Part shown: positions 2,619 through 33,588 of the stretch, piece by piece
Position numbering within the stretch: position 1 is the first letter of the stretch
Layout: the number at the start of each line of letters is the position of its first letter
DNA from: a virus
Virus record (IMG/VR): IMGVR_UViG_3300048033_000157
Location: 1-34,103 of that record
Direction: 5' to 3' (one strand)
DNA length: 34,103 bases
Made by a program: the position numbers and the translations under genes
The notes under the pieces: generated by a model
What the model was told of the DNA's origin: nothing
Database searches by the model: none
The model's input: only the letters and a program-made list of their open reading frames with translations

Positions 2619-4808
2619 ATGAAAATGGAAGTGGAAGAACAAATGGAAATGGCTCCCAAAACCGAAATCATTACGCAGTTCATAGCACAGATCACAGAAA
2701 ATTGGAACACTGTAGGCCAACCGCTCATAGAGATACGTTCTATATCGCAATCTGGATCAGCAAACGCCGCAAGATTTGCACTAAAAAACATCGACGATGC
2801 AGCACAACATGCCGAGGCAATGAACGCTGCCAAGCAAAACATATACATGTGCATCAATCCAATTGACCCAATCATAGACATACCAGCAGGCCAAGCCGCC
2901 AAAGATACAGACATCCTCGCCGCATTCTATTGCTTTGCAGACGCAGACACTGCGGGCGCAATGGAAAACATCCTGTCTTTCGCCGGCCCAAAGTTTACAA
3001 TGTCGATCAAGACAGGAACAACGCCATTCGCAAGAGGCCACGCATACTGGCAGCTCGAAGAGCCAGTGCAAAACATGCAAGCATGGCGTGATGTACAAAA
3101 AGCAATCGCCGCCTCACTCCAAACAGATGCAGCAGTCGTTAACCCATCACGCATCATGCGCGTGGCAGGCACAGTCTCATGGCCCAACCAAAAGAAACAA
3201 GACAAAGGATATGTCCCAGAGCTGGTCACAATGCGGACAGAGTTCTCAACAGACAGAGAGCCTGTCGAATTTGAACGCATGATGCGCGCATTCCCAAAGG
3301 CAGAGCCACAGGCTGCTAGCACAATGAGCATAGACCTCGGCCAGCAAGCAATGGACAGGCAACTGGCAGTCCAGAACGTGCTAGCAGGCGAGGATTGGCA
3401 TCACAATATGGTGCGCCTGGTTGGATCATACGTTAACAAAGGCTTGGCAGACGAAGAGATCCACGCGATCACAGATGGCTTCACCTTGGGCGGATACACA
3501 GTGGACGAAACAAGGGCAGAGGTGCAGAAGGCAATCGACGGAGCCAGAGCAAAAGGCTGGACGCCACCGCCAGACCCAGCAGCCGAGCGCATGGAGCAGC
3601 AGAACCAGACACTGCAAATAGCCACAGAGCCAACACAGAGCTACACAGAGGCCGATACAGGCAATGAATGGCCCACGCCTTACGAAATGTTTGATGCGCT
3701 CACACTGCCCCGCAGAGAGTGGGTTTATGGATACGACTACATCAAGAAGTATATCAGCGTCACAGCATCAGCCGGCGGCATAGGCAAGACATCAGCAATC
3801 ATTGTGGAAGCACTGGCAATATCGACAGGCAAAGACCTGCTTGGCGTAAGGGTCAAGGAGCAGTGCAACACATGGGTCATCAACCTAGAAGATCCTATCT
3901 CAGAACTTCAAATGAGAACCATAGCAGCCATGCAGCACTATGGCCTCAAGCCAGATGACATCAAAGGCAAGCTGTTCATGGATGGTGAGGACACCATGCA
4001 GATCACGCTGGCAGCAGAAGGCAGGGACGGCCTGATCCAGAACGATGAGCTGCTGGCATTTATGATCCGCAAGATCAAAGAGAACAACATAGGTGTCGTA
4101 ATATTAGATCCATTCATATCAGCCCACTTGGTCAATGAGAATAATAATGGCAGCATCCAGGCAGTCGTATCAATGCTCAGAAAGCTGGCAAGAGACACCA
4201 ACAGCTCAGTACAGCTTGTGCATCACATCCGTAAAGGCAACGGAGAAGACGCAACGGTTGATTCAGTGCGCGGTGCAGGCAGTCTGATCGGTGCAGCAAG
4301 AGCGGCAAGAGTGATAAACAGGATCACTCCAGAAGACGCAATGGCACTCGGGGTGGACGAACAAGAAGCACTCGGCATATTCCGCCAGGACGATGGAAAA
4401 CAAAATCTCGCACCACCATCAGACAAAGCAACATACCGCCGCATGATCTCAGTCGAAATAGCAAACGGTGAGCACATAGGCGTAGCAACAGAGTTCAAAC
4501 TGCCTGACCTGTTCGACGGCGTGACAGCCAAAGACCTCTACGATGTCCAAAGAACAGTTGGCAAGGCAGAGGAGAACGACAAGGCATACCGATCAGACAT
4601 CAGAGCAAAGAACTGGATCGGCAATGCAGTCGCAGAACAGCTCGACCTCGACACAGAAAAGCCAGGGGACAAAGCAAAGGCAAAGGCAATCGTCAAGAAG
4701 TGGATCAGCACAGGCAACCTCAAAGTCGCAGAGATAAGAGACAGCCGAAGCGGAAGAGATGTGCCGTGCGTAGTGGTCGGCGAATGGATCAATTGGGAGG
4801 AAGTTTGA
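2619..4808 (+). CDS. Bifunctional primase (AEP/RepB-like) and RepA-type hexameric helicase
   Basis: ATG at 2619 follows a strong GGGGAGG site. The N-terminal part of the 729-aa protein resembles RepB-like archaeo-eukaryotic primases: FADADT near residue 108 (acidic metal site), GHAYWQ near 140, and SRIMRVAGT near 177. A linker rich in Gln/Glu leads to a RepA-like AAA_25 ATPase. It has Walker A SAGGIGKTS near 383, Walker B VVILDPF near 495, VHHIRKG near 533 and the SVRGAGSLIGAARA segment. The C-terminus is basic and may bind DNA. It would unwind and prime the phage genome. No DNA polymerase gene follows, so a host polymerase is presumably recruited. The candidate origin lies directly downstream. 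Confidence 0.85.
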   Translation: MKMEVEEQMEMAPKTEIITQFIAQITENWNTVGQPLIEIRSISQSGSANAARFALKNIDDAAQHAEAMNAAKQNIYMCINPIDPIIDIPAGQAAKDTDILAAFYCFADADTAGAMENILSFAGPKFTMSIKTGTTPFARGHAYWQLEEPVQNMQAWRDVQKAIAASLQTDAAVVNPSRIMRVAGTVSWPNQKKQDKGYVPELVTMRTEFSTDREPVEFERMMRAFPKAEPQAASTMSIDLGQQAMDRQLAVQNVLAGEDWHHNMVRLVGSYVNKGLADEEIHAITDGFTLGGYTVDETRAEVQKAIDGARAKGWTPPPDPAAERMEQQNQTLQIATEPTQSYTEADTGNEWPTPYEMFDALTLPRREWVYGYDYIKKYISVTASAGGIGKTSAIIVEALAISTGKDLLGVRVKEQCNTWVINLEDPISELQMRTIAAMQHYGLKPDDIKGKLFMDGEDTMQITLAAEGRDGLIQNDELLAFMIRKIKENNIGVVILDPFISAHLVNENNNGSIQAVVSMLRKLARDTNSSVQLVHHIRKGNGEDATVDSVRGAGSLIGAARAARVINRITPEDAMALGVDEQEALGIFRQDDGKQNLAPPSDKATYRRMISVEIANGEHIGVATEFKLPDLFDGVTAKDLYDVQRTVGKAEENDKAYRSDIRAKNWIGNAVAEQLDLDTEKPGDKAKAKAIVKKWISTGNLKVAEIRDSRSGRDVPCVVVGEWINWEEV

Positions 4809-4814
4809 TGCGCG

Positions 4815-4970
4815 TTCCACACTTCCACAGTTGTTTTTCTGAACTGTGGATGAACTGTGGAACTGTGGAAGAAAAGGCCACAAATACTTCCACCACAGTA
4901 GTTGTATGTATATGCATACTACTGTGGTGGAATGTGGATTATATGAAACTGTGGTGAATGAACTGTGGAG
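4815..4970. repeat. Candidate replication origin: cluster of CTGTGGA/TCCACAG repeats
   Basis: This gap between the primase-helicase and the SSB-tail gene is packed with one word in both orientations. AACTGTGGA occurs at 4842-4850, 4853-4861, 4861-4869 and 4961-4969; AACTGTGGT at 4947-4955; the reverse complement TCCACAGTT at 4824-4832. TGTGGATGA (4845-4853) and TGTGGATTA (4933-4941) each differ by one base from the E. coli DnaA box complement TGTGGATAA. A large inverted repeat is embedded at 4888-4932. Iterons or DnaA-like boxes beside a replication initiator gene are typical of origins. The function is inferred. Confidence 0.6.
4888..4932. repeat. Perfect 15-bp inverted repeat with 15-base loop inside the candidate origin
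   Basis: TTCCACCACAGTAGT (4888-4902) and ACTACTGTGGTGGAA (4918-4932) are exact reverse complements, separated by 15 AT-rich bases that could pair further (ATG with CAT). It could extrude as a cruciform or form a stable RNA hairpin. The arms contain the CCACAGT/ACTGTGG core of the surrounding repeats. There is no U tract, so a terminator is less likely than a protein-binding or origin structure. Confidence 0.75.
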
Positions 4971-4976
4971 ATGATG

Positions 4977-5564
4977 ATGAATACGCAGAAGCCCAAGAGG
5001 CCAAGGCGCCAAAAGAAGGCAGACAGAATATTCAACCCGCAAGCACATAAGGATCAAATCATGTGTGACTATGCAATCGCACCAATGGATCGGCTGGCAA
5101 TACAAATGGACACAAAGTGGGGCATCGACATGCTGCCAGAATTGGTAAGCGTTGAGACAGCGCAGAAGTATGGATCAGCAATGGCAAAGATGAACAAGGC
5201 TATCGAAGAAAACAATCCAGAAGAATGTAAGGTCAGAGCAGAGGTCGTCGTAAGAGGCCTCAAAGCAATGGATGCAGAAGCAGAGCGCCTTGGAGCACAG
5301 AGAGCCTCAACAGACATCTGGGAGATGGAACTGGATGGCGAGACCTTTGGCATTATGAAAGACGGAAGGTCGTGGCAGAAGATCAAAGAACAACGGCCAG
5401 ACCTAGAGCTGCTGACGCTCAGAGAGGTGGCACTCGCATACCGAAACTTCCGAGACCACAACGCAGGAGAGTTCGAGAAGGCAGTCAAAGAATCCTTCCC
5501 AGCAGCAGAGATGATCGACATCCGAGCAAAGCCAAAAGTGTTTGATGATGACATCCCATTCTGA
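4977..5564 (+). CDS. Replication-module protein ending in an SSB-type DDDIPF tail
   Basis: Several in-frame starts exist (GTG 4965; ATG 4971, 4974, 4977). ATG 4977 is chosen because GGAG at 4967-4970 lies exactly six bases upstream, giving 195 aa. The N-terminus is very basic (KPKRPRRQKK), the body is helical and charged, and the protein ends KVFDDDIPF. That tip is the same as the tail of bacterial SSB, which binds host replication and repair proteins (for example PriA, RecQ, RecO, exonuclease I, the polymerase III chi subunit). No OB fold is evident, so this looks like an adaptor or mimic rather than an SSB. Repeats of the candidate origin flank the gene on both sides. The body matches no family I recognise. 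Confidence 0.8.
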   Translation: MNTQKPKRPRRQKKADRIFNPQAHKDQIMCDYAIAPMDRLAIQMDTKWGIDMLPELVSVETAQKYGSAMAKMNKAIEENNPEECKVRAEVVVRGLKAMDAEAERLGAQRASTDIWEMELDGETFGIMKDGRSWQKIKEQRPDLELLTLREVALAYRNFRDHNAGEFEKAVKESFPAAEMIDIRAKPKVFDDDIPF

Positions 5565-6458: not shown

Positions 6459-6649
6459 CTTACTCCCTGTCGCCTTCGCAACAAGCCATGCTAGGCCACT
6501 TGGAGGCCTTGAGGGATACTGTTGTTACTGGCCGCAGCGTGTCTGAGCAGATTGAGTCGGCAATATTGCTTATTGATTTGTACGAGGCTATCCTTGAGAG
6601 TAACGAAATATTGATATTCAGAGATCAGAAGAGGGTTACGGAGCATTGA
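6455..6649 (+). CDS. Small helical protein (64 aa) before the large terminase
   Basis: The frame is open from 6377, but the upstream part crosses the C-tract. TTG at 6455 is the most sensible start (GGAG at 6440-6443 and AGAGA at 6446-6450 upstream), giving MTYSLSPSQQ. ATG 6488 is the alternative. The product is acidic and helical (LSPSQQAMLGHLEALRDTVV; EQIESAILLIDLYEAILES). It ends with a TTGA overlap into the large terminase. It could be a packaging accessory, but I recognise no family. Confidence 0.6.
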   Translation: MTYSLSPSQQAMLGHLEALRDTVVTGRSVSEQIESAILLIDLYEAILESNEILIFRDQKRVTEH

Positions 6650-7923
6650 CGCACATTGAGATTCCTTATGAGCCGAGGGAGTTACAGCTACGGTTGCACA
6701 ATGAGATGTCTCAAAAGCGTTGGGGCGTTGTTGTTTGCCACCGCCGCTTTGGCAAAACGGTCTGGGCGATCAACCATGTTTTACGCGATGCCTTGATGTC
6801 TGGGAAAGAGAACCCCCGGTATGCTTATATGGCGCCCACCTATCGTCAGGCAAAGAATGTTGCTTGGGATTATATAAAACAGTTTGCTGGCAAGATCCCG
6901 AATGTTCGGTTTCACGAGACTGAATTGCGTTGTGATTTGCCGAATGGCGCTAGGATCAGCTTGCTTGGCGCTGAGAATCCAGACAGCTTGCGTGGGATTT
7001 ATCTTGACGGTTGTGTTATGGATGAGGTTGCCGACATGCCTGAGAATGTTTTTCCTGAAGTGTTGAGGCCGGCGTTATCTGATCGCAAGGGTTGGTGTGT
7101 GTTTGTCGGGACGCCGAAGGGTCACAATGCTTTTTTTGATAAGTATGAGGAGGCGGCTTCTAATCCTGATTGGTTGGCTGCGGTTTACAAGGCGAGTGAG
7201 ACAGGCTTGCTGGACGATGAGGAATTGTCTGCTGCCAAGTCTATGATGACGCATGACCAGTATCAGCAGGAATTTGAGTGTTCTTGGAATGCGAATGTTC
7301 CTGGTGCTGTTTATGGCAAGGAGATGGAGGTTGCTCAGTTGGATGGGCGGATTTCCAATGTTCCTTATGACCCGAGTGTGCGTGTTGACACTTGGTGGGA
7401 CTTGGGTGTTGGCGACAGCACAGCGATATGGTTTACGCAATCGGTTGGTCGTGCTATACATGTGATAGACTTTTACGAGGCCCGTGGTGAGGGGTTGCCT
7501 CATTACTGCAAAATTTTAACGTCTAAGAACTATTTGTATGGCGACCACAATGCGCCGCACGACATTGAGGTTCGGGAGTTAGGATCTGGGAAGAGCCGGC
7601 GTGAGGTTGCTTGGGACTTGGGTTTGAACTTTCGAGTTGTTCCTAAGTTGCCGATTGAGGATGGCATACATGCGGGTCAGATGTTGATCCCGCGTTTATG
7701 GTTTGACAGGGAGAAGTGCGGGCATGGTTTGGAGTGTTTGCGTCAGTATCATAGAGCGTATAACGAGCGCACTAGGAGCTTTAGGTCTTCGCCTGTCCAT
7801 GATTGGTCGAGCCATGCAGCGGATGCTTTTAGGTATTTGGCAGTTGGTTTGCGAGAAAGCAGGGATCGCATGGCGGTTTCTCAGAAAATGGCGGTAATGG
7901 ATTATGATCCATTTGCGGCGTAA
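6646..7923 (+). CDS. terL: Terminase large subunit
   Basis: The 425-aa packaging motor has an N-terminal ATPase with Walker A HRRFGKT (32-38). An APTYRQAKNVAW segment follows, then Walker B ending VMDE (126-127) and the coupling segment GTPKGHNAFF. The C-terminal RNase H-like nuclease has VDTWWDLGVGDSTAIWF with its first metal aspartate and ends with HAADAFRYLAVG. It cuts and pumps DNA into the prohead through the portal. The start is TTG at 6646, overlapping the previous stop. The first ATG would be residue 21 and would remove the conserved PRELQLRLHN region before the P-loop. Codons here are G- and T-rich, unlike the upstream block. Confidence 0.93.
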   Translation: MTHIEIPYEPRELQLRLHNEMSQKRWGVVVCHRRFGKTVWAINHVLRDALMSGKENPRYAYMAPTYRQAKNVAWDYIKQFAGKIPNVRFHETELRCDLPNGARISLLGAENPDSLRGIYLDGCVMDEVADMPENVFPEVLRPALSDRKGWCVFVGTPKGHNAFFDKYEEAASNPDWLAAVYKASETGLLDDEELSAAKSMMTHDQYQQEFECSWNANVPGAVYGKEMEVAQLDGRISNVPYDPSVRVDTWWDLGVGDSTAIWFTQSVGRAIHVIDFYEARGEGLPHYCKILTSKNYLYGDHNAPHDIEVRELGSGKSRREVAWDLGLNFRVVPKLPIEDGIHAGQMLIPRLWFDREKCGHGLECLRQYHRAYNERTRSFRSSPVHDWSSHAADAFRYLAVGLRESRDRMAVSQKMAVMDYDPFAA

Positions 7924-33476: not shown

Positions 33477-33588
33477 GTGAGTGGCTATCATCACAATACA
33501 AATCGCTTTGTCCCAATTGGGCGGTTGTTTACTCGGATGACGTTGCTGCCAAAAGGCGCCAATCTTTTAAATATCAACGGCCACTCAC
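33477..33588. ncRNA. Possible structured RNA or inverted-repeat element between convergent genes
   Basis: GTGAGTGGC (33477-33485) and GCCACTCAC (33580-33588) could close a 112-base element. Inside, ACAAA/TTTGT (33498-33511) makes a hairpin with loop TCGC. CCC/GGG (33512-33521) stacks directly on it, and GCC/GGC with loop AAAA (around 33548-33557) makes another. No reading frame fits. An RNA domain, a protein-binding site or a leftward 3' end are all possible. No tRNA-like T-arm or CCA end is present. Confidence 0.35.

Follow-up and report, generated by a model that had tools for sequence, protein, structure and literature searches.

Where a phage begins to copy its DNA, and which protein recognizes the starting site, are questions raised by a short, repeat-filled gap between two genes in the viral DNA analyzed here (IMG/VR uncultured-virus record IMGVR_UViG_3300048033_000157; the whole stretch of 34,103 nucleotides is referred to below as the window). 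In relatives the two ends of the window lie ~370 bp apart, and the map is therefore circular and the window nearly complete. The original prediction, drawn from the sequence alone, was that repeats behind a primase-helicase gene form a DnaA-like or iteron-type replication origin recruiting host machinery in a phage without a polymerase of its own. The premise agrees with our scan, which detected no DNA polymerase family among the open reading frames examined, barring the primase-helicase's own match to a primase/polymerase PHROG. Of the proposal itself, the iteron-type origin is well supported because the array is conserved, syntenic and co-varies with the helicase's DNA-binding domain, whereas the DnaA component is not, the DnaA-box-like sites being lost in several classes of relatives. 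Comparisons among these relatives indicate that the array is very probably a phage replication origin read by the helicase's own C-terminal winged helix.

The iteron array and its neighboring genes

The array starts 6 bp past the stop codon of the primase-helicase gene (4808) and occupies the gap up to the next gene (4974/4977), so that the repeats do crowd directly behind this gene, within ~155 bp, as had been claimed. Exact copies of AACTGTGGA occur five times in the whole 34,103-base record, all within positions 4824-4969 (four on the plus strand, one on the minus strand), and the array interval holds 7 copies if at most one mismatch is allowed and 10 if at most two are; the predicted count of "six or more" thus holds with one mismatch allowed but not for exact copies. 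In 60 first-order simulations of the window, scored per 160-bp stretch to give the chance expectation, no stretch exceeded one exact or two one-mismatch copies, and the clustering of short direct and inverted repeats next to the putative initiator gene is accordingly beyond chance. Cumulative GC skew, proposed earlier as a check, was uninformative: it rises nearly monotonically from a minimum at 431 to a maximum at 33,484, positions that flank the contig junction.

Table 1. Positions of the array, its repeats and hairpins, and the flanking genes in the window
Feature	Position	Strand	Basis
Iteron array, putative replication origin	4815..4970	.	repeat counts, simulations, folding, relatives
Inverted iteron TCCACACTT, one mismatch	4816..4824	-	sequence
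Inverted iteron, exact	4824..4832	-	sequence
Direct iteron, exact	4842..4850	+	sequence
Direct iteron, exact	4853..4861	+	sequence
Direct iteron, exact	4861..4869	+	sequence
Degenerate iteron GAATGTGGA, two mismatches, just 3' of hairpin 2	4930..4938	+	sequence
Direct iteron AACTGTGGT, one mismatch	4947..4955	+	sequence
Direct iteron, exact; GGAG within it overlaps the next gene's likely ribosome-binding site	4961..4969	+	
Hairpin 1, two inverted iterons opposite two direct iterons (arms 4815-4832/4853-4870)	4815..4870	.	
Hairpin 2, iteron-sequence stem, 5' bulge and TA-rich apex; candidate priming site	4888..4932	.	
Primase-helicase, 729 aa: AEP-like N-terminal part, RepA-type (AAA_25) helicase, C-terminal winged helix	2619..4808	+	
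C-terminal winged helix, residues 631-729, putative iteron reader	4509..4805	+	co-variation, model
Codon of residue 662 (R), candidate reader of base -1	4602..4604	+	co-variation
Codons of residues 710 (R) and 711 (S), wing tip, candidate readers of N2 and N1	4746..4751	+	
Downstream gene, 195 aa, conserved, ends in SSB-tip-like FDDDIPF	4977..5564	+	

The upstream gene product is a RepA-type hexameric helicase, matching Pfam AAA_25 (E 5e-31) and RSF1010 RepA (1g8y, E 7e-7) in sequence, and 1nlf/1g8y in a Foldseek search with its structure model (E 9e-5). Its primase part has no match to a Pfam primase; it matches the AEP PrimPol 6zp9 (E 1e-3 and 1e-4) and, in a Foldseek search on an N-terminal model of low confidence, RepB' (3h20, E 0.0095). 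The elements of the winged helix are modeled with confidence (H637-652, H667-674, H682-697, E701-707 and E714-720). No RepC-like gene is present among the family matches of the window's open reading frames. The primase part is modular among relatives: it is of Prim-Pol/PriCT-2 type in L180 and L182, and in L188-L190 Toprim is encoded by a separate gene, but these swaps leave helicase, winged helix and array in place (L180, L182, L206, L188-L190).

The product of the downstream gene belongs to no known family, and a fold search with it returned nothing with E below 0.001. Nearly all relatives end this protein with DD[DP]IP[FW], which resembles the DDDIPF tip of bacterial SSB (PMC5872125). The terS gene lies ~0.7 kb downstream of the array, and the large terminase is closest to those of HTVC010P-type pelagiphages (~57% identity); the annotation of HTVC010P lists no such primase-helicase.

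Elsewhere in the window, several TTGCTAGCA / CTAGCAA repeats at 387-480 precede a 60-aa open reading frame (491-673) and overlap a sigma-70-like TTGATA-17-TATGTA read by eye, which perhaps represents an early promoter with operators; TTGCTAGCC also occurs at the left edge of arrays of the AGGTGTGG class described below (e.g. L034, L045).

Hairpins within the array

As single-stranded DNA, the array region folds far more stably than its shuffles (z = -8.0), and it contains two iteron-built hairpins that were absent from the original description. The arms of hairpin 1 span 18 nt and are 94% complementary, and hairpin 2 has a perfect 15-bp stem (arms 4888-4902/4918-4932). In all 22 distinct hairpins of the second type that were parsed, with bulges sought equally on either side, the 5' bulge (2-4 nt) is longer than the 3' bulge (0-1 nt). 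The sequence of the apex stem varies (TGTATA/TATACA, TCCTATA/TATAGGA, TGCATA/TATGCA, CTATG/CATAG, CCCCCC/GGGGGG). Because the MAFFT alignment of the hairpins is not structure-aware and misaligned bulges of 2 and 3 nt, pair counting was replaced by a shuffle test, in which the apices pair better than the same letters do in shuffled order (ten representatives, combined p 5e-15, an optimistic value because related sequences are not independent).

A bulged hairpin with a paired apex would be expected of an element that folds as a single strand, and would be unneeded for inverted sites bound as double-stranded DNA. The RSF1010 primase begins synthesis on the 3' side of a hairpin of this kind (PMC4434180); by this analogy, we give hairpin 2 an even chance of being the primer site.

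Conservation of the array among relatives

Approximately 90 distinct related phage loci or contigs were read. In nearly all relatives of sufficient length, down to ~50% identity, the array stands directly before the same downstream gene, and in loci where the primase-helicase is followed by an inserted gene of PAPS-reductase-like or methylase-like type, the array is found behind the insert. What changes is the sequence of the iterons. A class switch hits all copies of an array at once, stems included, giving the classes AACTGTGG, AAGTGTGG, AGGTGTGG and AGGTGAGG, the further classes AGGTGGGG (L090) and AGGTGCGG (L180-L182), and the more distant CAGTGGCGC (L083, L088, L173), all within the common frame nnTG-NN-G[AC]. 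Across these classes, one and the same iteron base is T, A, G or C in different lineages. Loss of the repeats in close relatives, which would have spoken against the original prediction, is therefore not what is seen: position and layout are kept while the letters change together. Arrays mixing two classes occur in some loci (e.g. L055, L157), and AATGTGG of the degenerate iteron is retained in nearly all relatives of the AACTGTGG class.

The same helicase is encoded by alphaproteobacterial phage-plasmids and prophages, in which arrays also lie behind the helicase, each with its own iteron: GGTGACGCA in Rhodoplanes, GGTGGGGCA in Microvirga and Mangrovicoccus, GGTGGAGCA in Rhizobium and Bradyrhizobium, CTTGCGGAA in Caenibius, as well as GGTGCGGCA, GGTGATGCA, CACTGGGGCA, CATGGCGC and others. 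These distant iterons fit nnTG-NN-G[AC] as well. At a dozen distant prophage loci no array was seen within 450 bp, and single-protein scans with L083, L166, L180 and L182 brought few extra relatives. One scan, confined to the AACTGTGG class, yielded no clear case of a satellite carrying the array without the helicase; the unrelated contigs it retrieved have 2-4 copies and no such helicase.

Several observations were made alongside these comparisons. Insertions recur at the junction of primase-helicase and array, with the array staying with the downstream gene (L009, L020, L023, L033, L041, L048, L054, L068, L072, L076, L081, L136, L160, L161, and also L022, L026, L042, L046); the inserts are PAPS-reductase-like genes in many loci and a methylase-like or other short gene in others. 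L050, L075 and L079 carry the usual iteron classes in a longer, rearranged array (~350-400 bp) with extra hairpins. In four AT-rich phages lacking this helicase (L201, L211, L218, L220), TTCCACAGTTCCACAGTTCCA(C) is present in an intergenic stretch that precedes AT-rich DNA, and these are perhaps other iteron origins of convergent sequence, and L225 has dense tandem GGAACTGT(GGAACTGT) and ATCCTCACAG units at ~6460-6700, with this helicase not nearby. L191 (NZ_CP081845.1, Caenibius sp. WL plasmid p1) is a 38-kb circular "plasmid" that carries a terminase gene and a distant homolog of the downstream gene and shares the gene order, and it is a possible cultured model.

Two explanations other than replication bear on this layout. 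The single gap ahead of the next gene is taken up by the array, whose last iteron overlaps the likely ribosome-binding site, as might be expected of an operator or regulatory region from which the winged helix or another regulator represses that gene. However, a consensus scan of 4500-5400 gave no promoter- or terminator-like site, the conserved bulged hairpin is unexpected for a plain operator, and other genes may stand between helicase and array; we assign this explanation a slight chance only, although operator function could be an additional role of the array. Strong hairpins on one strand and compensatory changes would also suit an element acting as structured RNA and not as DNA, for instance an attenuator or a regulatory RNA. 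Yet no Rfam family reached the gathering score and none came near it, and the direct iterons outside the hairpins change together with the stems and with the DNA-binding domain, which an RNA model does not need. The probability that we attach to an RNA element is minimal.

Co-variation of the iterons with the helicase winged helix

Across 85 loci, residues strongly associated with iteron class are confined to 631-729, the highest value being 0.96 at residue 711 in the wing tip, and no column among residues 1-630 exceeds 0.6. On trees of 64 full-length rows, the winged helix needs 3 class changes and other helicase segments of ~100-130 aa need 8-13. Proteins encoded elsewhere gave similar contrasts on matched rows: RuvC 7 changes vs 2 for the winged helix, the exonuclease 10 vs 2, the SSB-like gene 11 vs 2 and TerL 6 vs 3. 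Of the proteins and segments tested, the C-terminal winged helix of the helicase is the only one that tracks the iteron switches (2-4 vs 6-13 changes). The downstream gene was considered as the source of the iteron reader and rejected: despite its start right behind the array, its tree requires 12 changes in the 64-row set, and the columns of highest association lie in the array itself, upstream of the gene start.

The same comparison bears on whether the small terminase recognizes the array as its packaging (pac) site. In some phages, pac sites typically have repeats close to terS, and the array does lie between early and late genes. The TerS tree, however, is out of step with the iteron classes (10 changes, with the winged helix needing 4 in this set of 57 rows), which leaves a pac site very improbable.

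Linkage is a serious alternative explanation for part of the co-inheritance, given that the coding sequence of the winged helix adjoins the array. In loci with a gene inserted between helicase and array, the iteron class changes 4 times on the tree of the insert and twice, the minimum, on that of the winged helix; this control points in the right direction on a small sample of 12 loci.

A DnaA-dependent origin, in which host DnaA would bind near-DnaA boxes and open the array, can also be weighed here. The two DnaA-box-like sites noted earlier are indeed present, each one base off (4845-4853 and 4933-4941), and RSF1010-like and iteron plasmid origins often have DnaA boxes. The window nevertheless has no perfect DnaA box, and the one-mismatch boxes, ~2 per array in AACTGTGG relatives, fall to 0.05 in the GGTGAGG class and to 0 in the GGTGGGG and CAGTGGCGC classes, in which the array is kept nonetheless; the switches, moreover, track a phage protein domain. 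A DnaA-dependent origin was rejected on the lack of a conserved box, and its probability is very low. The reader of the iterons is most likely the phage's own RepA-type helicase and not DnaA, because only the winged helix follows the switches and likeness to the DnaA box is lost in several classes.

A possible correspondence between residues and bases

The co-variation suggests that three winged-helix residues track three iteron bases, namely residue 662 with base -1, 710 with N2 and 711 with N1. Among the distant loci, all 16 with G at -1 have Q at residue 662, which immediately precedes the second helix, and the 8 others all lack it there. Where N2 is G, 10 of 12 distant loci have R or K at residue 710, compared with 2 of the 12 in which N2 is another base. 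Both counts come from loci of partly shared ancestry. In independent pairs on the near-family tree, agreement is 6:0 for residue 662 (2 ties) and 5:0 for residue 711. The Mangrovicoccus loci L101 and L102 encode near-identical winged helices that diverge mainly at the wing and at a few residues ahead of the first helix; between their iterons, NN differs.

The code hypothesis was read from these same data, so a blind case matters: L206, a distant phage, was fetched by AACTGTGG array DNA alone and encodes a 37%-identical helicase with another primase type, and its residues R662, K710 and S711 are those expected for AACTGTGG out of sample. Exceptions also exist, namely AAGTG iterons with R662 in L049, L052, L084 and L172, and AGGTGTGG iterons with a AACTGTGG-like wing in L030; the code, if real, is therefore incomplete.

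A working model and its relation to known origins

The retained array and its layout, the predicted folding, and the specific co-variation between iterons and winged helix are observations at the sequence level, and from them we infer binding, opening, priming and recruitment of host proteins. In the model that we favor, the C-terminal winged helix of the phage primase-helicase would bind the iterons through the frame nnTG-NN-G[AC], and this binding would load the RepA-type hexameric helicase onto the array. The loaded helicase would open the DNA and expose hairpin 2, which, with its conserved 5' bulge, would act as a single-strand initiation site where the fused primase makes the first primer. 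A host polymerase would then extend the primer, recruitment of host proteins perhaps being aided by the SSB-like tip of the downstream product.

The closest mechanistic parallel is RSF1010 oriV with its RepC, RepA and RepB' proteins (PMC4434180, PMC4234260). A RepA-type hexameric helicase, matching in sequence and fold, is common to both, and so is the combination of iterons with hairpins, which here would serve as single-strand initiation sites; a primase likely of AEP type and extension by a host polymerase would be further parallels. Unlike RSF1010, in which three proteins share these tasks and RepC reads the iterons, the window encodes a putative primase, helicase and candidate winged-helix reader in one polypeptide, and the putative origin lies directly 3' of its gene. 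As the family matches include no separate RepC and the helicase's own winged helix follows the iterons, we do not regard the array as a member of the RSF1010 oriV type; it may instead work like an RSF1010 system condensed into one protein and sited as in SaPI, SCC and pRN1.

Other systems share individual features. In the SaPI Rep-ori and SCCmec Cch2 systems, the initiator helicase uses its C-terminal domain to bind short iterons lying just behind its own gene (PMC7581432), as proposed here, but their helicases are of other families and no iteron-stem hairpin with a conserved bulge has been described there. In pRN1 (ORF904) and phage BIP-1, too, a single protein joins a primase and a helicase to a C-terminal winged helix, and the stem-loop 3' of the gene is conserved in structure, variable in sequence and, in pRN1, essential (PMC4234260); the helicase there is of SF3 type, however, and iterons are lacking. 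The alpha protein of phage P4 is a multifunctional primase-helicase with a winged helix that binds origin repeats (described in PMC4234260), but it has a Toprim-type primase and a helicase of a different family. The PrimQH AEP primases, compared in domain order only, resemble the window protein in the succession of primase, P-loop ATPase (some RepA-type) and winged helix, for which origin recognition was suggested without an origin or evidence of recognition (PMC5862659). Finally, co-variation of an initiator's DNA-binding domain with iterons among close relatives is known from PLE RepA/ori (PMC8263062) and geminivirus Rep (PMC12548392), and in both cognate specificity was shown experimentally (PMC8263062, PMC12548392). 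Those initiators are unrelated to the present one, and PLE has two module types with ~30-bp iterons, whereas here a graded, base-by-base series unfolds within one frame.

Implications for phage replication

As far as the papers searched show, what is new is the proposed origin itself, its wide spread with RepA-type helicases, the concerted base-by-base diversification and the candidate residue-base links. It is tempting, if somewhat less than an even bet, to see in these arrays a large and undescribed class of origins read by RepA-type helicases through a positional code (662 to base -1, 710 to N2, 711 to N1), in which array and reader are rewritten together and every lineage has an origin of its own, a plausible driver being satellites or rival relatives that would use or attack origins. 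Satellite pressure is one possible cause of the diversification, by analogy with what has been shown for PLE and its origin-directed nuclease.

For these phages and prophages, no earlier origin was found in the literature searched. The array and the primase-helicase provide a concrete putative origin and initiator for marine phages whose packaging genes are pelagiphage-related, and for alphaproteobacterial phage-plasmids and prophages. With all four bases represented at one iteron position, set against a few residues of a small domain, the natural iteron series makes the evolution of initiator specificity directly testable, and it suggests that origins in uncultured viruses may be predictable from protein sequence.
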